Origin: Herbidospora cretacea
GTDB taxonomy: Bacteria > Actinomycetota > Actinomycetes > Streptosporangiales > Streptosporangiaceae
Direction of reading: 5' to 3'
Length of the DNA: 64,000 nucleotides
Assembly: GCF_001570605.1 (NCBI RefSeq)
Contig: NZ_BBXG01000002.1
Span: forward strand, 32,549 to 96,548
Part shown: in pieces, positions 7,731-42,306 of the stretch
How positions within the stretch are numbered: the stretch's first letter is position 1
Layout of the letters: each line of letters opens with the position of its first letter
Notes under the pieces: model-generated
The model's input: the letters and a program-made list of their open reading frames with translations, nothing else
The model's database searches: none
What the model was told of the DNA's origin: nothing
Position numbers and translations under genes: made by a program

Positions 7731-8029
7731 AGTTCCCCCAGGTCACCAGGCTAGCCGCTGCCCAATCGCCGAGGTCGGCCCTCGAATCGCCGCCCCGCCC
7801 GACGCGCTGAGCCGCGTATCCGCCGACGTCTTCGGCCGATGACATCACCCGCCCCGAAGCGCCCGGCACCCCGCTTCGGTAAAGGCGCCGGGGAGCACCC
7901 CGGCGGGCGATCTGGGGTTCCTTGCCGGTCTGATGACGACGGACACGATCCTGGACTCTGATCGCACCGGCGATCTAGCCGTTCGTGAACAAGTCTCCGC
8001 GTCGAACGGCCGAAGCACGCCTACGAGCT

Positions 8030-8116
8030 CAAGAAGGAGCACGACCGCTGGCGTACGGACAGGTCTAAACGCTGGTCGCCCTCTCAGCCCGGTTCGCCCC
8101 CACATGGTGCATCATG
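8030..8116 (-). pseudogene. Decayed TPP riboswitch and right copy of the cassette-flanking repeat
   Basis: Bases 8069-8094 are identical to 1682-1707 of the functional TPP riboswitch (26 of 26), and 8084-8116 match 1751-1783 (32 of 33). On the minus strand this gives GGGCTGAGAGGGCGACCAGC followed by GACCTGTCCGTACGCCAGCGG, which still resembles the second arm of the aptamer but lacks the GGGTAATGCC block. It therefore looks like a broken second riboswitch with no thiamine gene downstream. The rest of 7731-8139 holds no gene I can support. Confidence 0.55.
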
Positions 8117-8139
8117 TGCCTGGTTCGGCCACCCCCGCG

Positions 8140-8871
8140 TCAGCTCGCGGACGGGAAGCGGACTCTGCCGTTCGGTGGGGCGGGCAGGTGCTTCTTCGCA
8201 CCCCACCAGTCGAACTTGACGCAGGTGTCGCGGCCGGGGCTGTCCTGGCCGTCGTCCACTTTCGCGCAGAACTGGCTCGGCAGGCCCTTCGCACTGGTGT
8301 ACATGTGCCACTTGACGTCCACCGCCGCCTGGACCGCGTCGGGCTTCGGGGCGTCGGCCCGCAGGGACGGCGAGACCGCGTAGAGGTCGCCGTAGGCGAT
8401 GACCCCCTCGTACATGGTCGCGTTGCGGCGCTTCCCCGCCGTGAGCAGCGCCTTGAGCGTCGTCGGTTCGACGACGAAGACGGGGTTCCAGAAGGGGTTG
8501 TGCTCCCTGGGCTCGGCCCGCCAGACCTTCCCCTTGGGCAGGGTGCGCAGGATCGCCGGGCTGGTGCGGTAGGTGTACTTCCCGACGCCGAGCGATCTGA
8601 TCGGGTCCTTGACGGGAGCGCGCTTCACCCGCGTCTCGTAGGCCACCACTTGCTTGCGCCCGAACTCCAGCCACCCCTCCTGCCAGAAGACCAGCTTCGC
8701 CGGCACGCTGGCGAACGAATGCCCCCACTCACGGATCATGACCCCGTGGCCCGGCACGTACTGCGCCTTCACAGCCGTCAGGGGATCGGCAGCCGCCTCT
8801 GCGGGACTCGGAACGCCGAGCCCAGCGGCTACAAGGGTCACGACCATCATTCGCCGTATCACGGGGTGCAT
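8140..8871 (-). CDS. Secreted protein of unknown function
   Basis: A 243-residue protein with a clear Sec signal peptide: a short basic start, the hydrophobic stretch MMVVTLVAAGLGVPS, and a likely cleavage after PAEAA near residue 28. The mature part is rich in aromatic residues, including many Trp, and contains a few cysteines (SQFCAKV, DTCVKFDWW) that could form a disulfide. I recognise no catalytic motif. The start at 8871 is chosen because the signal peptide begins there; the frame stays open upstream without coding character. The next gene upstream on the same strand is a lipoprotein 20 bases away, so the two may be co-transcribed. Confidence 0.7.
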   Translation of the reverse strand: MHPVIRRMMVVTLVAAGLGVPSPAEAAADPLTAVKAQYVPGHGVMIREWGHSFASVPAKLVFWQEGWLEFGRKQVVAYETRVKRAPVKDPIRSLGVGKYTYRTSPAILRTLPKGKVWRAEPREHNPFWNPVFVVEPTTLKALLTAGKRRNATMYEGVIAYGDLYAVSPSLRADAPKPDAVQAAVDVKWHMYTSAKGLPSQFCAKVDDGQDSPGRDTCVKFDWWGAKKHLPAPPNGRVRFPSAS

Positions 8872-13461: not shown

Positions 13462-14004
13462 ATGGACCACTACAGCCGCAAGATGCACAAGTTCTTCACC
13501 CTGCTCGACGCCGACGGCGACAGTGTCCTCACGTTCGCCGACTTCACCGCGGCGGCCGGGCGGGCGGCGCAGGCCTTCGGCTGGAGCCCCTCCTCAGACC
13601 AGAGCGTCGCCATCCGCCAGAGCTACGCCGCCCTGTGGACGGAGGTCTACGCGCCGATGGACCTCGACGGCGACGCGGGCCTCGACTTCGGCGAATATCT
13701 CGCGGCCCACCAGAAGACGATCCTCGGCCTGCCCGACGGCTACCAGCGGGTCCAGCCGGTCTCGCAGGCGTTCCTGCAACTGGCCGACACCGACGGCGAC
13801 GGCGTCATCTCCCGCGAGGAGTACGTCGCCACCATGAACAGCGCCTTCGGCCTCTCCCATGAAGACGGCCACCACGCCTTCGACCAGCTCGACACCGAGG
13901 GCAAGGGGGCCCTCTCCTTCGGCGAGGTCCACCGCGCCGTCGAGGGCTACTTCTGCAGCGACAACCCCGAGACGTACGGCTCGGCCCTGCTCGGGCGGGT
14001 CTGA
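13462..14004 (+). CDS. Calerythrin-like EF-hand calcium-binding protein
   Basis: A 180-residue cytoplasmic protein with four EF-hand loops in order: DADGDSVLTFADF, DLDGDAGLDFGEY, DTDGDGVISREEY and DTEGKGALSFGEV. The first three keep the acidic positions for calcium; the fourth has Lys in place of an acidic ligand and may be weak. This layout matches actinobacterial calerythrin-type calcium buffers or sensors. An AGAGGAAG ribosome binding site precedes the ATG. The next gene starts 2 bases after the stop, so the CqsA-like synthase is probably co-expressed with it. Confidence 0.88.
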   Translation: MDHYSRKMHKFFTLLDADGDSVLTFADFTAAAGRAAQAFGWSPSSDQSVAIRQSYAALWTEVYAPMDLDGDAGLDFGEYLAAHQKTILGLPDGYQRVQPVSQAFLQLADTDGDGVISREEYVATMNSAFGLSHEDGHHAFDQLDTEGKGALSFGEVHRAVEGYFCSDNPETYGSALLGRV

Positions 14005-36059: not shown

Positions 36060-37007
36060 ATGCGGAGAGTCGTGGTCGTCGGATATCCGGCCGCCGAGTT
36101 ACTGGACATCGCCAGCGTGACCACCAGCCTGATCATGGCGAACGTCTTCGGCGCCGCGCCGCCCTATGACGTCGTGTTCGCCACCCCCGGCGGCAGCCCG
36201 GTCGTCTGCGCCAGCGGCCTGACCCTGGCCGCGCAGGCCTCCCTCGAACAGGAGACCGGCCCGCTCGACACGCTCATCGTCGTGGGCGGCATCGGCTGCG
36301 ACGACGCCGCGGGCAACGCCGTCCTGGTCGCCCACCTCCGGCGGCTCGCCAAGGTCAGCCGCCGGGTCGCCTCCGTCTGCACGGGCGCCACCGTGCTGGC
36401 CGAGACCGGCCTGCTCGACGGCCGCCGGGCCACCACCCACTGGCAGGACGCCCCCCGCCTGGCCGCCCGCCACCCGCAGATCACGGTCGACCCCGATCCG
36501 ATCTTCATCCGCGACGGCGCGGTCTCGACCTCGGCCGGGGTGACCGCCGCGCTCGACCTCACGCTGGCCTTCATCGAAGAGGACCACGGCAGCGAGGTGG
36601 CCCGGATGACCTCGCGGCACCTGGTGACCTATCTCCAGCGCCCCGGCAACCAGGCCCAGATGAGCATGTTCGTCAAGCCGCCCGCCCCCGACGGCCCGCT
36701 GAGCTCGCTGGCCGGCTTCATCGGCGCCAACCTGTGTGAGGACCTGTCGACGGCCGCCCTGGCCCGCCGGGCCGGCACCAGCGAACGCCACCTGACCCGG
36801 CTGTTCGTGAAGCACCTGAACGTGTCACCGGCGCGGTACGTCCGCGAGGCCCGGCTGGAGGCGGCGGCCCGGCTGCTGGAGGCGACCGACCTGACGATGG
36901 CGGTGATCGCCCAGCGGACCGGCTTCGGCCGGGCGGAGTCGCTGCGGCAGGCGTTCACCGGCCGCTACGGGATCGCGCCGTCGCGGTTCAGGAGGGGCCG
37001 CTCCTAG
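36060..37007 (+). CDS. GlxA-family transcriptional regulator (DJ-1/PfpI domain plus AraC HTH)
   Basis: A 315-residue regulator. Residues 1-170 form a class I amidotransferase-like DJ-1/PfpI domain, with the nucleophile-elbow Cys in VCTGATVLAETGLLDG. Residues 215-315 form an AraC-type double helix-turn-helix (TAALARRAGTSERHLTRLF and FGRAESLRQAFTGRYG). Family members activate choline, carnitine or arginine catabolism. The divergent four-helix membrane protein is the only nearby target candidate. Confidence 0.88.
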   Translation: MRRVVVVGYPAAELLDIASVTTSLIMANVFGAAPPYDVVFATPGGSPVVCASGLTLAAQASLEQETGPLDTLIVVGGIGCDDAAGNAVLVAHLRRLAKVSRRVASVCTGATVLAETGLLDGRRATTHWQDAPRLAARHPQITVDPDPIFIRDGAVSTSAGVTAALDLTLAFIEEDHGSEVARMTSRHLVTYLQRPGNQAQMSMFVKPPAPDGPLSSLAGFIGANLCEDLSTAALARRAGTSERHLTRLFVKHLNVSPARYVREARLEAAARLLEATDLTMAVIAQRTGFGRAESLRQAFTGRYGIAPSRFRRGRS

Positions 37008-37852
37008 AAGAGGGTCAGCGGTTCGACTTCCGGGGGGTCGGGGAGCGGTTCGAGGTCCGGGAGCTTGGCGCGGACCTCCTGGTGGAAGCGGTGGGCCAGG
37101 GTCAGGGCCTGGGTGTTGTCGGGGGTGTGGACGAACATCGTCGGGGAGCGGCCCTCCTTCAGCCACTCGACGGTCTTCTCGATCCAGAAGGCCCAGCCCT
37201 CTACCGTCCGGTCGGCGTCGTCGCGGCCGATGTAGCGGATCAGGGGGTGGCTCGTCAGGGCGCGGTCGCGGCGGGGCATCCTCGGTTTTCTCGTCCAGGC
37301 GTCGCGTTCGGCGTCGGAGGTCGGCGGGCGCTCGAACAGGACGGTGGTGTCGAAGGGGACCCACTCGGCCTGCCTGGTGGCCAGGACCTTCTCCAACCCC
37401 GCGACGGCCCTCGCGTCGTCGAAGAAGGCGCGGTGGCGGACCTCGACGGCGTAGCGGTGGCCCGTCGGCAGGGTGCGGAGGAAGGCCGCGAGGGTGCCGA
37501 GGTCGGCGGGGCCGAAGCCGGCGGGGAGCTGGATCCACAGGGCGTGCAGGCGGGGGCCGAGCGGTTCCATCGTGTGGAGGAACTGCCGCAGCTCCTCGGG
37601 CGGGCCCTGCAGGTGGCGCAGGTGGGTGATGCTCTTCGGCAGTTTGGCCAGGAGGCGGAAGCCGGGGTCGGTCTGGCGGGCCCACGACTCGACCGTCTCC
37701 CGGGCCGGCACGGCGTAGAAGGTCGTGTTGCCCTCGACGGCGTTGCACCAGGTCGCGTACGCCTCCAGGCGCTCCCCGGGCGGGAGCTGGGGCTGCCACG
37801 ACTTGTGGTTCCACTGGGCGCAGCCCACATGCAGTTCATAGCATGGGTTCAT
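37004..37852 (-). CDS. DUF72 family protein
   Basis: A 282-residue TIM-barrel-like DUF72 protein: GCAQWNHKSW and VEGNTTFYAVP near the start, RYAVEVRHRAFF in the middle and VHTPDNTQALTLAHRF near the end. Its molecular function is unknown. The N-terminus MNPCYELHVGCAQW is normal only from about residue 6. The start codon ATG (37852-37850) overlaps, on the opposite strand, the ATG of the serine recombinase (37851-37853). The recombinase-bearing island therefore begins at or within the 5' end of this gene. Confidence 0.85.
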   Translation of the reverse strand: MNPCYELHVGCAQWNHKSWQPQLPPGERLEAYATWCNAVEGNTTFYAVPARETVESWARQTDPGFRLLAKLPKSITHLRHLQGPPEELRQFLHTMEPLGPRLHALWIQLPAGFGPADLGTLAAFLRTLPTGHRYAVEVRHRAFFDDARAVAGLEKVLATRQAEWVPFDTTVLFERPPTSDAERDAWTRKPRMPRRDRALTSHPLIRYIGRDDADRTVEGWAFWIEKTVEWLKEGRSPTMFVHTPDNTQALTLAHRFHQEVRAKLPDLEPLPDPPEVEPLTLF

Positions 37853-39362
37853 GAATAGTCCAGACGAACAAGAAGAGGCAAGAAGACATCGAAGTGTTTC
37901 CAGAATAGCCGATCCGGCTACCCGCAAAAACAATCGCGACGCATGGCGCGGACAACAGGCCGCGATTTACTGCCGCATATCGCAGGCCCGCGACGAAGAC
38001 CAAACAGGCGTGGACCGGCAAGAGCGAATCTGCATCGGCATTGCTGAACGCCTCGGGCTCATTGTCAATCCCGCGAACATCTTCATCGACAACAACCGTT
38101 CCGCATGGCGGCGAAATCGGAAGCGCCCTGGGTGGGATGCTCTTCTCACTGCGATGAACAACGGAATCACACATGTCATCGCCTATCACCCAGACCGGCT
38201 CATGCGACAGCCGCGAGACTTAGAAGAGTTACTGACGATATCCGACGATCACGGAATCACCCTGCACGGGGAAGCCAACCGGCGAGATCTCTCTGACCCG
38301 GATGACAGATTCTTTCTCCGGATCGAAGTAGCTCACGCTTGCCGCTCTTCGGACGACACCTCCCGTCGCCTGAAATCCATGATGGCGGACAGGGCCAGGG
38401 ACGGAAAGCCGAGAACTGGCGGCAGACGACGCTATGGATACGCACCCAATGCCGTCGACATCATCCCAGAAGAAGCCGAAATAGTTCGCTGGATATTTGA
38501 GAGCTTCCTCGACGGGATGACGCCGTTCAAGATGACGGCAGACCTGAACCGGCGTGGGGTCAAAAGCGCACAAGGCAAGCTTTGGCGCGTCAACGCGCTT
38601 CTGAACATCATCGACTCTCCGCACGTCGCCGGGATCGTGAGATTCAGGGGACATGAAATCGGCAGGGGATCGTGGCCTGCGATCATCGATGTAGGCATGT
38701 GGAAGGAGGCACAAGAACGCCGTACCTTCCGGTCCGTCGCCTTCAAGGAGAATCTTGTGCAGGGCAGGTTCTACCTGCTTCGAGGCGTCGTCTACTGCAC
38801 CGCCTGCGGACGGGTGATGGTCGGCAGGCCAATGGGCGGAAACCGGCCTATCTATATATGCGGTTCCCATACTAACCCAGACAAGAGCACCAGATGCTTC
38901 CGCAGCGTCGGCGCAATCACTCTCGAGTCCTTTGTCGAAGACGCAACGATAGATCTCCTCGAACGCCTAGATATCACCGGAAAAGAACGAGCAACGATCC
39001 TTTCAGAAGGGGATGAAGCGTCCATAGAGTCCGATCGGGCTGAACTCGCCGAACTCAAGGAGATGTGGGATGCACGAGAAATCAACACAGCCGAATATCG
39101 CGAAATGAGGAAGACGATAGAAAAGCGAATCAAGAAGGTTCAGGACAAGACCATTGTCCGTCCCGTCGCGGAAGTCCTCCACGGAATGGTCGGCTCGCAA
39201 GCACGCGCGACCTGGAATGCACATAAAGAAGCCGGTAATTACGAGAGACTCAATGCGATCATCAGATTCCTCTTTGCGGCAGTCAGAATCAAAGCAGCCG
39301 AATCGCCCGCAAGAGGCGCGTTTGACTACGGCCGTGTTGAAATCGATCAGAACGATCTGTAG
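37851..39362 (+). CDS. Large serine recombinase (site-specific integrase)
   Basis: A 503-residue large serine recombinase. The resolvase domain has the nucleophile Ser44 in AAIYCRISQARDEDQTGVDRQ and the RLMRQPRDLEELL block. The recombinase domain (about 170-290) includes GGRRRYGYAPN and NIIDSPHVAGIVRF. A zinc ribbon has YCTACGRV and a downstream CGSH/CFR pair, and a coiled-coil region ends the protein. It integrates and excises an element at short att sites. The first in-frame start after a stop at 37839 is ATG 37851, which gives an unusual 38-residue extension before the catalytic domain and no ribosome binding site. Confidence 0.9.
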   Translation: MNSPDEQEEARRHRSVSRIADPATRKNNRDAWRGQQAAIYCRISQARDEDQTGVDRQERICIGIAERLGLIVNPANIFIDNNRSAWRRNRKRPGWDALLTAMNNGITHVIAYHPDRLMRQPRDLEELLTISDDHGITLHGEANRRDLSDPDDRFFLRIEVAHACRSSDDTSRRLKSMMADRARDGKPRTGGRRRYGYAPNAVDIIPEEAEIVRWIFESFLDGMTPFKMTADLNRRGVKSAQGKLWRVNALLNIIDSPHVAGIVRFRGHEIGRGSWPAIIDVGMWKEAQERRTFRSVAFKENLVQGRFYLLRGVVYCTACGRVMVGRPMGGNRPIYICGSHTNPDKSTRCFRSVGAITLESFVEDATIDLLERLDITGKERATILSEGDEASIESDRAELAELKEMWDAREINTAEYREMRKTIEKRIKKVQDKTIVRPVAEVLHGMVGSQARATWNAHKEAGNYERLNAIIRFLFAAVRIKAAESPARGAFDYGRVEIDQNDL

Positions 39363-39379
39363 CACGGCAGCCCAACCGA

Positions 39380-39416
39380 AGATGGACCCCGCCAAGGTGG
39401 CGGGGTCCATCTTTTT
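39380..39416. terminator. Bidirectional-looking terminator after the recombinase
   Basis: GATGGACCCCGCC pairs perfectly with GGCGGGGTCCATC around a 5-base loop, followed by TTTTT on the plus strand. It lies between the recombinase and the convergent CTG-start gene. Confidence 0.9.
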
Positions 39417-39606
39417 AGTCTTTCAGGTAATCGTCGAGCGCGAGCAGTCGCGCCAGGCGGCGTGCGCCTTCCTCACTGATGGAAGTCTTGAACTTGCTTG
39501 TCACTCTCTTTAAGTGATATGCGCGCTGCGCATCTTGTGTTTTGCCAGTCCGCCGATGGGCGGTTGCCTCCTCGAATCCATCGTTGCTGTTCGGCGTAAT
39601 CGTCAG
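39415..39606 (-). CDS. 63-residue basic helical protein with apparent CTG start
   Basis: This gene is missed if only ATG, GTG or TTG starts are allowed. The frame between an upstream TGA and the TAA at 39415 encodes NDGFEEATAHRR, AQRAYHLKRVTSKFKT and ISEEGARRLARLLALDDYL, clearly protein-like with two amphipathic helices and a basic centre. The only well-placed start is CTG at 39606, six bases after GGAGG in GGGGAGGTGAT, a near-perfect ribosome binding site. It converges on the recombinase. Its size, charge and position fit a recombination directionality factor or small DNA-binding protein, but no family is recognised. Confidence 0.6.
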   Translation of the reverse strand: MTITPNSNDGFEEATAHRRTGKTQDAQRAYHLKRVTSKFKTSISEEGARRLARLLALDDYLKD

Positions 39607-39619
39607 ATATCACCTCCCC

Positions 39620-39691
39620 TCAAAGACAGGTGACGGGTATCCCTCCTCTTCGGATGCTGAGCGATTGTCCACGGAGCTTGTCCACGGACAT
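39620..39691 (-). other. Possible 23-codon leader ORF with its own ribosome binding site
   Basis: Immediately upstream of the CTG-start gene, GGGAGGTGATG precedes a short frame MSVDKLRGQSLSIRRGGIPV ending at TGA (39622-39620), right before the second GGGGAGGTGAT. A GTG two codons in has better spacing. It contains two copies of an 11-base repeat. It may be a regulatory leader or chance. Confidence 0.3.
39665..39688. repeat. Two direct repeats TTGTCCACGGA, 13-bp period
   Basis: TTGTCCACGGA occurs at 39665-39675 and 39678-39688, separated by two bases, just upstream of the CTG-start gene inside the possible leader. Tandem sites of this spacing suit a DNA-binding protein. Between 39692 and 40000 I see only a perfect palindrome GGCCATGGCC at 39913-39922 and no gene. 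Confidence 0.6.
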
Positions 39692-40000
39692 CACCTCCCA
39701 AATTGCGTGACGCAGGTACACGCCACTTTGAACAACGATCCAGGCATACCCGAAAACGTCAAGGGGCCAGTGCGCATCCGCATCGATTCGTACGGTCCTC
39801 AAGCGGACAGGTCGCTTGCCGAACCGTGCACACGGAAGCTGGTGAGCCGACGCGAGTAGAGCCGCGCCGGGCGACCAAGGGAGTCGGCTCAGAGAGCGCT
39901 CAGGGTCACCTGGGCCATGGCCTGACCGGGACGGGACCCCTGGGATGGCATGCGCGCTCCAGCGTGATTGAGAGAATCTCCGGCCGGAGCGCGGATTCGA

Positions 40001-41173
40001 TTACTGCGCGCTGGGCGTGCGGACGGATGCCATGATCTCATCCCGCGCTTCACTAGCTAGAGGGGAATCAAAACGTCCGAGCATTGCGTAAATCCTGTCC
40101 AGCCTCCGCACAATCCAGGAAATCTGCCTTTCCTGGGGCAGGTTCAAGACTTCCCTGTAGGACTCGATCGCGCCGTCTAATTCACTCTGCTGAAGTCGCG
40201 CGGTCGCACGATAAATACGTGCCAGCGCCTCGTCACTGTGTGACCGTTCCTTTTCTGGGCTCGCCTCGAATAAGGCGATTGCTTCGGTCGATTCTTTGTC
40301 GGCGCGCACAGAATCGTGTTCTCCATCAAGCCAAATCAGACTAGAACCGGCATAGTAATGCTGCTTGGCTATGGGAAAACCGAAAATTCCCGGTTCGTCG
40401 TCAGCACTCGGACGCATGGTATCGCGCAGATCTAACGCCTTATTCAGTGCTTCATGAGCGGAGCGTGAATCCCCCTGATGCGCCAGGCATTGAGCAGTGC
40501 CACACAGAAGGCGCACCGAAGAGGTTCCCTCAGTCGCGTAGGGAAAGCCTGAATCCAAAAAGTCACGGGCCGACTTGAAGTCGCCTAAGAACCGAGCGAT
40601 AAGGCTTTGGGTGCCACGAGCCCATGCACGTAGGCCGTTGTGTCCCGCTAGTTCACCAAAATGAAAGACGCTTTTGGCATGGATGCTCGCTTCCTTGCCG
40701 TAGCCAAGGTCTAATGTCGCGTAAGCGAGAACTCCAGAAGCGAGCCCAGCACTCAAATAGAGGTTAGGCGTCGGCTTTACCGCCAGAGATGCAAAGATCC
40801 TGTTTCTGACGTCCCTGGCATCACGTAACGCGTCCAGCGGTGAGGCATCGAGGTAGTTGACGGCGAGGCCCCTGGACAGGGCATCGAACGCGTCATCTCC
40901 GTCTAAGACGGATTGGGACTCGGAGACCGCCTGGAGAATAAAGGACGGACTCAGGCGCTCTGGTTGCCCCAAAAATGATTCGGGCACGTCAAGGATCATG
41001 GCCAGATGATTAATCCAGAACCTTGATGGCGTTCGTTTGCCGTTCTCCCACCGGGAGACCTCAGCACGAGTGATCGTGGAGCGCCCGGAAGCGGCGCAGA
41101 GTTGGGCGGCAAGCTCGGACTGGGAGAGTCCGGCCGCTTCACGAAGTTCCCTGAGCACGTGCCCTATGGACAT
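40001..41173 (-). CDS. XRE-family regulator with TPR-like C-terminal domain
   Basis: A 390-residue protein. The N-terminal helix-turn-helix covers about residues 5-70 (LRELREAAGLSQSELAAQL and TRAEVSRWENGKRTPS). About 300 residues of helical TPR-like repeats follow. Such fusions in actinomycetes respond to small ligands or peptides and often regulate an adjacent small gene. Here two small genes lie on the other strand across an intergenic region with a matching palindrome. The lower GC content matches the rest of the island. Confidence 0.85.
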   Translation of the reverse strand: MSIGHVLRELREAAGLSQSELAAQLCAASGRSTITRAEVSRWENGKRTPSRFWINHLAMILDVPESFLGQPERLSPSFILQAVSESQSVLDGDDAFDALSRGLAVNYLDASPLDALRDARDVRNRIFASLAVKPTPNLYLSAGLASGVLAYATLDLGYGKEASIHAKSVFHFGELAGHNGLRAWARGTQSLIARFLGDFKSARDFLDSGFPYATEGTSSVRLLCGTAQCLAHQGDSRSAHEALNKALDLRDTMRPSADDEPGIFGFPIAKQHYYAGSSLIWLDGEHDSVRADKESTEAIALFEASPEKERSHSDEALARIYRATARLQQSELDGAIESYREVLNLPQERQISWIVRRLDRIYAMLGRFDSPLASEARDEIMASVRTPSAQ

Positions 41174-41222
41174 GAGATCGATTGTACGCTCACGGACATT
41201 TCCGGTAATGCGAACTGGACTA

Positions 41223-41237
41223 TCTCACATAGTGAGA
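41223..41237. promoter_or_regulatory. Palindrome TCTCAC-ATA-GTGAGA between the XRE gene and 41329 gene
   Basis: A perfect 6+3+6 inverted repeat 50 bases upstream of the XRE start and about 90 before the divergent gene. It is the natural operator candidate for the XRE regulator. The downstream TGAGACAAT is repeated at 42136-42144. Confidence 0.5.
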
Positions 41238-41328
41238 CAATGGCCACTAGCTCCGGCCACTCCCAAAAGCCTGGCGATCGAGTTCCCTAATTACAGGCGG
41301 GGTTCTTGATCACAGCGAGGGAGTGCCG

Positions 41329-41754
41329 ATGCAGGAGGATCCAGGAGCCACAGCTCTAACAGATATTGAGCCTGATCCACCGTCTCAGCGCCCGCCGGGG
41401 ATGAGTGCATCCCTTGGCCCATTCAAGCTCGCGACAGACGTCCGTCTAGCCGCTCTTCTGCTTCTCGGAAACACGCTTGAGGAATCGGGTGTACGCACTT
41501 ACGTCGTGCGCACACTCAACCTGAGGATGCCGCCTGGCGGCGCGCAGTGGTTTCCTCTCACCGAGAAGGATCCGGAACTCATCGTGCTCATGGCCGGGGA
41601 GGTGCTCGCCACGATCACCATGGGGGAACACTCCGGGAAATTCGTCATTGAGCCAGGGGCACGGGTGGAACCCTCCGACGCGGCAGAGGTGGCGACGGCG
41701 GATGAAGCACTTGAGACGGTGATGGGCCTCCGGGTTCCGCCGCCCAAGGAGTAG
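41329..41754 (+). CDS. Small protein of unknown function in the island
   Basis: A 141-residue acidic protein with a proline-rich start, a helical segment (DVRLAALLLLGNTLEESGV) and a C-terminal beta-rich part (TYVVRTLNLRMPPGGAQW and GEVLATITMGEHSGKFVIEPG). No known family is apparent. The ATG at 41329 is preferred because AGCGAGGGA lies at a suitable distance; an upstream GTG at 41323 is possible. It is transcribed away from the XRE regulator and followed by another small gene 4 bases downstream. Confidence 0.65.
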   Translation: MQEDPGATALTDIEPDPPSQRPPGMSASLGPFKLATDVRLAALLLLGNTLEESGVRTYVVRTLNLRMPPGGAQWFPLTEKDPELIVLMAGEVLATITMGEHSGKFVIEPGARVEPSDAAEVATADEALETVMGLRVPPPKE

Positions 41755-41758
41755 CGAG

Positions 41759-42037
41759 ATGCGAGCAGTGCCCACCCCCGATAGGGGCAATACGGGTGAA
41801 TCTGGCCTAAGGGAATTTGCCGCCTACTGGACCTTCTTCCCCGCAAGCGGTGGCCATATAGCGGTTCGGAAGATCACCCTTCCGGAGGAATGGCTTCAAA
41901 AGGGACTCTCCAACGCAAGGGCAGGCGCGACACTGACCGCTCTGCGGACGGCACTCGTCGAAGAATCGATCCTCGACGGCAAGCTTCGCCGGGCAGGACC
42001 GTACGCCCATGACTGGCAGCACCGAACAGTCTCCTAG
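41759..42037 (+). CDS. Small protein of unknown function, second gene of the pair
   Basis: A 92-residue protein with central beta-strand and helix (HIAVRKITLPEEWLQKGL) and a C-terminal helix (ARAGATLTALRTALVEESIL). It follows the previous stop by 4 bases with AAGGAG in front of the ATG, so the two genes form an operon. No recognised domain. Confidence 0.6.
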   Translation: MRAVPTPDRGNTGESGLREFAAYWTFFPASGGHIAVRKITLPEEWLQKGLSNARAGATLTALRTALVEESILDGKLRRAGPYAHDWQHRTVS

Positions 42038-42073
42038 CTCCGGCACGCTCCGTGATCGTGTCAGGTTTGTCTT

Positions 42074-42144
42074 CGTCTCACGTCTCGCGCGCGCCTGCAC
42101 GCGTAGGGCGTGAGACGTCTCTGAGACAAAGACGTTGAGACAAT
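42074..42144. promoter_or_regulatory. Cluster of GAGAC/GTCTC half-sites and inverted repeats
   Basis: CGTCTCACG (42074-42082) pairs with CGTGAGACG (42109-42117). GAGACGTCTC (42112-42121) is a perfect palindrome that leads into GTCTCTGAGAC (42117-42127). A further TGAGACAAT lies at 42136-42144, matching 41233-41241. The half-site equals that of the palindrome upstream of the XRE gene. The rest of 42038-42416 has no gene I can support. Confidence 0.45.
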
Positions 42145-42306
42145 CACACAGAGTAGCGATGTGCCCGAGGGGCACGCTCTCCTGCTCGATCACCTCCGTG
42201 CCAGCGCCGACAACGCCTGTACACGTCCGCGCAGCTCGCCACCCATGCTACGAGGATCGCTTGACCCATCCCACGTGTAGTCGCATGGCTCAGCCCGTTA
42301 CCCCAC

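Follow-up and report, generated by a model that had tools for sequence, protein, structure and literature searches.

The integrated island

The DNA analysed here (the window, 64,000 nt) comes from the 8.28 Mb genome of Herbidospora cretacea and contains an integrated island of about 4.5 kb. Its approximate extent was delimited by comparison with six other genomes of the genus, in which both flanks are present and the stretch at about 37815-42306 is missing. The spacing of the flanks is 66 bp in G006, 155-294 bp in G002, G001 and G005, and about 1.1 kb (to 1,160 bp) in G003 and G004 (G and L numbers are our handles for genomes and loci). The genes of the island and its target are the following.

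37815..42306 (approximate extent), no strand: integrated island of 4.5 kb
37004..37933, minus strand: DUF72 gene, with the insertion site at its 5' end
37851..39362, plus strand: large serine integrase with Resolvase, Recombinase and zinc beta ribbon domains
39378..39414, no strand: 17-bp stem separating the 3' ends of X and the integrase gene, scored as a terminator on the plus strand only
39415..39606, minus strand: gene X, 63 codons from CTG plus TAA, putative small accessory protein of the serine integrase
40001..41173, minus strand: HTH-TPR regulator of an NsdA-like family (family scan), variable cargo
41323..41754, plus strand: small ORF with no significant Pfam family

In the nearest relative, the genome G161 of another genus, the integrase starts at the same place in the DUF72 gene of that genome. 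At 37815-37853 the 5' end of the DUF72 target gene and the integrase start codon overlap, as they do in G161, so that integration sets the integrase gene directly against the DUF72 gene. With regard to the cargo, the HTH-TPR protein has no tblastn match in the G161 element. Neither a replication initiator nor an FtsK-type transfer domain, the features used here to recognise an AICE, was detected in X, the integrase, the HTH-TPR gene or the ORF at 41323-41754. This result speaks against X having a part in replication or transfer. Among the related elements, the plasmid record L083 is AICE-like by annotation and L055 by reading of its ORFs.

A small conserved gene beside the integrase

The frame at 39606-39415 on the minus strand translates as LTITPNSNDGFEEATAHRRTGKTQDAQRAYHLKRVTSKFKTSISEEGARRLARLLALDDYLKD, followed by a stop codon. 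The sequence elements at its 5' side are listed below.

39600..39618, minus strand: 19-nt block GGGAGGTGATATCTGACGA, composed of a Shine-Dalgarno sequence, spacer, CTG, the next codon ACG and an A, identical in G161
39620..39691, minus strand: 23-codon leader ORF MSVDKLRGQSLSIRRGGIPVTCL, not conserved
39665..39688, minus strand: two copies of TCCGTGGACAA with a period of 13, possible operator repeats (GTGGAC motif)
39690..39699, minus strand: first copy of GGGAGGTGAT, from the motif count in the window

The initial annotation described a frame devoid of ATG, GTG or TTG near its 5' end, and this is the case: the earliest in-frame canonical start is a GTG at codon 35, within the conserved core of the protein, and an in-frame TGA lies two codons upstream of the CTG. 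The CTG itself, at 39606-39604, was correctly placed 6 nt past GGAGG (39617-39613). The ribosome binding site GGGAGGTGAT, present in three copies in the window against 0.14 expected, is duplicated as claimed (39618-39609 and 39699-39690), but the two copies are 81 nt apart from start to start and not 73. The 64-kb window contains a single instance of a layout with GGAGG, 4-9 nt, CTG and at least 60 codons, preceded by a close stop and free of canonical starts over the first 30 codons. By itself this layout is not significant; since 12 of 60 simulated 64-kb sequences contain at least one, it needs comparative support, which comes from its conservation in another genus.

By tblastn, X was found in four of 341 genomes of the family, its own included, the others being G161 (63%), G008 (61%) and G019 (59%); this count leaves out three matches at E 0.06-0.09. 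In codons 25-58, referred to as the core, dN/dS is 0.10 between the window and G161, 0.08 between the window and G008 and 0.20-0.22 in three other pairs, while the synonymous sites of the sixth pair (window-G019) are saturated. The differences between the window and G161 in these codons number 6, 4 and 18 at codon positions 1, 2 and 3. Judged from these substitution patterns, the X core is a protein under purifying selection, and the earlier claim of a real protein-coding gene is borne out; the conservation of codons in homologous islands, on which that claim had been made to depend, is present in the core. The first 24 alignment columns of the same pair differ at 7, 8 and 6 sites by codon position, with a dN/dS of 0.99 (0.29-0.87 for codons 1-24 in the five other pairs), indicating little or no codon-level constraint there between the window and G161. 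Such weak constraint suggests that the N-terminus is an unconstrained tail or is only partly translated.

The more distant members follow the same division, with an N-terminal part that varies in length and sequence and a core in which RAYHLxRVxxxFxTxISxxxAxRLAxLL is kept. On this comparison, the X protein combines a conserved core of about 34 residues with an N-terminal tail that varies. The core probably forms two helices; the structure model, inspected for a winged-helix HTH domain of the kind found in Xis-type excisionases, has three predicted helices and no strands, at low confidence (mean pLDDT 61.6). No family was matched in NCBIfam or PHROGs by four X proteins at E <= 1, or in Pfam by the X of the window, and none of the described directionality-factor or excisionase families in Pfam, NCBIfam and PHROGs corresponds to X. 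Comparison with PDB sequences gave no significant match either (best E 0.36).

The start codon of X

The window and G161 are identical at 19 of 19 nucleotides over the block from the Shine-Dalgarno sequence to CTG-ACGA, whereas the flanks of this block agree at only 6 of 18 positions upstream (33%) and 13 of 26 downstream (50%). After the in-frame stop, the codons read TAT CTG ACG ATT in the window and TAT CTG ACG AAT in G161, as compared with CGC CCG ACG ACC in G008 and CCG ACG CCC in G019. A canonical start near the Shine-Dalgarno sequence is lacking in all four, and before the core the window and G161 share no near-cognate codons other than CTG and the ACG next to it. The identical block lends good support to the reading that translation in these two genomes likely starts at the CTG or at the adjacent ACG, with CTG ranked first and ACG as the likely runner-up. 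The CTG start put forward in the initial annotation thus gains from a relative of another genus, but it is not general, as G008 and G019 have CCG and three distant genes have GTG or TTG. Shortly past a GAGGTG, these distant genes have GTG in G458 and in one of the two copies of G427, and TTG in the other copy of G427. The member found on a plasmid (NZ_CP130632.1) reads GAGGTGTCCCG-GTG-ACG, comparable to the CTG-ACG of the window. An ATG was taken for the X of G380, with no Shine-Dalgarno sequence identified, and the genes of G602 and of the second G019 element are without an assignable start.

A possible, though not favoured, alternative is that the CTG is incidental and that X starts elsewhere, at the adjacent ACG, at a GTG further in or by frameshift joining to an upstream ORF, any of which would be compatible with X as a directionality factor. 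The ACG stands at a fixed distance from the Shine-Dalgarno sequence in all four close relatives (window included), CCG takes the place of CTG in two of them, and the 24 N-terminal codons are weakly constrained, all of which speaks for such a start. Furthermore, codon 15 of the frame is GTG in G008 and G019 and might be their start. Nonetheless, codon 15 is GCA in the window and GCG in G161, and the CTG itself lies within the block of 19 identical nucleotides. As for frameshift joining, the frame of the upstream ORFs relative to X varies among the relatives, and the leader of the window stops upstream of the X-frame stop, so that one frameshift cannot link the two.

It appears improbable that the start has decayed, the CTG being the remnant of a GTG or TTG and X being silenced in the window genome. 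The GTG or TTG found here in three distant genes and the GTG-ACG of the plasmid member would agree with such a decay, as would the CCG of two close relatives and the small size of the island. Against it, the CTG and its perfect Shine-Dalgarno block are common to the window and G161 although 26% of the core positions differ between their X genes, and the strong purifying selection on this core implies that X stayed functional during most of the period after their split.

Three further candidates were rejected. A programmed frameshift or stop readthrough from the leader is contradicted by the varying frame of the upstream ORF among the four close relatives and by the TGA TAA that precedes X in G019. 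The frame that begins at the GTG inside the Shine-Dalgarno sequence, 46 aa long in the window and with first codons alike in the four sequences, ends after 8 codons in G008 and 6 in G019.

The preferred reading remains that translation of X in the window and G161 would start at CUG, 6 nt past a near-perfect Shine-Dalgarno sequence. According to figures cited in the accessible text of PMC11497404, CUG accounts for 0.024% of bacterial starts and yields 0.86% of the AUG output; PMC4648390 was set aside since its accessible part concerns eukaryotic reinitiation. Because a CUG start is so inefficient, X production would be low, and its combination with a strong Shine-Dalgarno sequence may give a low, steady output of X, under which the element would mostly stay integrated.

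The upstream region

The initial annotation had also proposed translational control of X by the 23-codon ORF. The description of this ORF (39691-39620) was accurate: it stops 1 nt short of the second GGGAGGTGAT, and it contains the 11-mer TCCGTGGACAA twice, at 39688-39678 and 39675-39665, where 0.03 would be expected. The proposed control nevertheless finds no support in the relatives, since the ORF, the first GGGAGGTGAT and the 11-mer are all unconserved. The 420 nt preceding X in the three closest relatives contain neither the first GGGAGGTGAT copy nor the 11-mer in its exact form, and tblastn of the leader peptide against their loci gave nothing significant (best E 1.4). Every close relative has some mini-ORF ending near X, but such mini-ORFs are frequent by chance: with the Shine-Dalgarno block fixed and the rest shuffled, the probability is 0.53-0.84 per sequence, giving a product of 0.19 with any start codon. 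The product falls to 0.007 with ATG only, a restriction chosen after seeing the data. A conserved leader peptide was rejected on these grounds.

The repeats seem to call for a different reading. Counted over 220 nt upstream of X, the GTGGAC motifs of the four close relatives, among them the window, number 2, 3, 3 and 4; of seven other X genes, six have none upstream and one has two. Because these motifs also cluster upstream of X in the relatives, the 11-mer looks more like a DNA site, and the repeat and its GTGGAC motifs look like protein-binding sites or an RNA hairpin rather than codons. In G161, G008 and G019 the GTCCAC/GTGGAC sequences form part of long inverted repeats upstream of X (L053, about 13500-13600; L056; L054), while the window has just two direct GTGGAC copies. 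In the four close relatives, a separate motif like GGAGGGGAT(A/G)CCC precedes the start region of X by some 30-40 nt (about 39645-39630 on the minus strand of the window; upstream of X in L003, L004 and L008), and the differences in its distance among relatives are not divisible by three.

Association with one integrase clade

Integrases 46-78% identical to that of the window, which were also found independently of X, define the clade considered here. They occur in G161, G019 (two), G008, G427, G380, G602, G458 (split over two contigs) and the plasmid NZ_CP130632.1; in G008, only the C-terminal part of the integrase lies beside X (L056, about 7934-8484). An X profile was built from nine genes of eight elements (E 1e-31 to 1e-21), begun at an arbitrary codon for G602 and at the chosen ATG for G380, and was run against 7769 stop-to-stop frames. 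X was found in ten of ten elements with the C-terminal part of a clade integrase, namely those of the window, G161, G008, G019 (two), G427 (with two X copies), G380, G602, G458 and NZ_CP130632.1. Two of the ten had not entered the profile, the plasmid element (E 5.5e-7) and the second G019 element, which is a weak call (E 0.002). The plasmid relative of X surfaced only via its integrase, by eye and with the profile. Two Streptomyces plasmids, NBC_01136 and NBC_01384, were left out of the ten; their recombinase matches only residues 34-313 of the query, and no X match was found in the 6.8 kb taken from them.

At the level of the class, strong X matches (E <= 3e-9) and integrase matches (E <= 1e-80) fall in the same 5 of 394 genomes, a count that omits 7 of 12 matched genomes (E 0.0036-0.0085, open frames of 86-419 aa). 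The profile detected no X at 26 loci of integrases 30-42% identical to that of the window (L027-L052; best E 0.87), loci of 2.9-4.4 kb from which a distant X would escape, nor at 12 viral-contig loci (L086-L097; best E 0.87). By tblastn, X had no match in 50,697 phage records or in plasmid records, and none was found in viral contigs; a phage origin of X was rejected for want of matches in phage records and viral contigs.

The arrangement of the two genes is variable. In the window, G008, both G019 elements, G427, G380 and G458 the two are adjacent and convergent; in G602 (3.3 kb) and in the plasmid (one gene between) they are convergent but apart, and in G161 they lie on the same strand, 3.4 kb from each other. 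Two tandem X genes are found in G427 (L058, 5592-5840 and 6463-6738) beside one integrase. The X relative of the plasmid (L083, 3304-3441) is not annotated as a separate CDS in the PLSDB gene table of NZ_CP130632.1, which is incomplete. It sits between a gene adjoining the integrase and a replication initiator, with which it has a slight overlap. As far as these elements go, X travels with this integrase clade across elements, positions and orientations.

A candidate directionality factor

The initial annotation had placed X in the position of an excision factor, and its presence in all ten elements found with this integrase clade supports and widens this placing. Two properties expected of a directionality factor are seen in the family: a small protein is encoded in the same mobile element as the integrase in ten of ten cases (one weak), and it is specific to one integrase group, occurring in the same 5 of 394 genomes and at none of the more distant or viral loci. 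In a clade of large serine integrases from actinobacteria, X would be part of the recombination module. Its linkage to the integrase without a fixed place or operon suggests that it acts on the integrase in trans, most likely as a recombination directionality factor that enables attL x attR excision, the likeliest trans role on present comparisons. Taken as a whole, the proposal that this integrase clade has in X a small accessory protein, which is most likely the directionality factor and is kept low by a CUG start, is one to which we give an even chance.

A minority possibility, to be taken seriously, is that X is a real accessory gene of the integrase but acts as a transcriptional or post-translational regulator of the integrase or the element. 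X has no family match and no usable fold, hence no structural pointer to a directionality factor, and the GTGGAC repeats that precede X in all four close relatives suggest regulation there. This is difficult to reconcile with the way X follows the integrase while the surrounding regulators change, as with the unmatched HTH-TPR protein, and with a position and orientation relative to the integrase gene that vary, with no one fixed operon.

A broader version of the directionality-factor proposal appears rather doubtful. It holds X to be the unrecognised directionality factor of the whole clade, with a near- or non-cognate start codon selected in one lineage to throttle its synthesis. Following a strong Shine-Dalgarno sequence, this codon, which would be CUG here and either CCG or ACG in two relatives, would then limit excision at translation initiation.

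The directionality factors of phage serine integrases, such as phiC31 gp3, Bxb1 gp47, phiRv1 Xis and SPbeta SprA, are not known to be related to one another in sequence, and each is specific to one integrase group. Like these, X is encoded by the element; unlike their hosts, the X elements are small islands and AICE-like elements, and X has no match in PHROGs or among the phage records. The Xis of pSAM2-type AICEs resembles X in being a small protein encoded beside the integrase; in plasmid NZ_CP130632.1, X has its place between the replication initiator and the gene that adjoins the integrase. The Xis of pSAM2 serves a tyrosine integrase, whereas X goes with a serine integrase and is convergent in most elements.

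A further parallel is the Frankia alni element Faln2929, for which the accessible text of an AICE survey (PMC3218068) describes a serine recombinase gene convergent with tra and rep. According to the same text, Faln2929 excises though no directionality factor was identified, from which its authors infer that none is needed. As presented there, such excision counts against the need for a factor such as X. A testable alternative, by analogy, would be an overlooked X-like gene in Faln2929. The literature searched, which lay mostly outside subscription papers, contained neither a description of the X family nor any mention of such a gene starting at CUG.

Implications

For many serine integrases, enzymes widely used in genome editing, the directionality factor is the half that is missing, and such factors are hard to detect from sequence similarity. 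As a family that goes with a single integrase clade, X is a direct candidate. X also raises the question of whether elements like Faln2929, which excise without an identified factor, carry one too. If true, the CUG start would explain how gene finders limited to ATG, GTG and TTG could miss such genes, and a CUG conserved in two genera would be a naturally occurring example of a poor start codon determining gene dosage.
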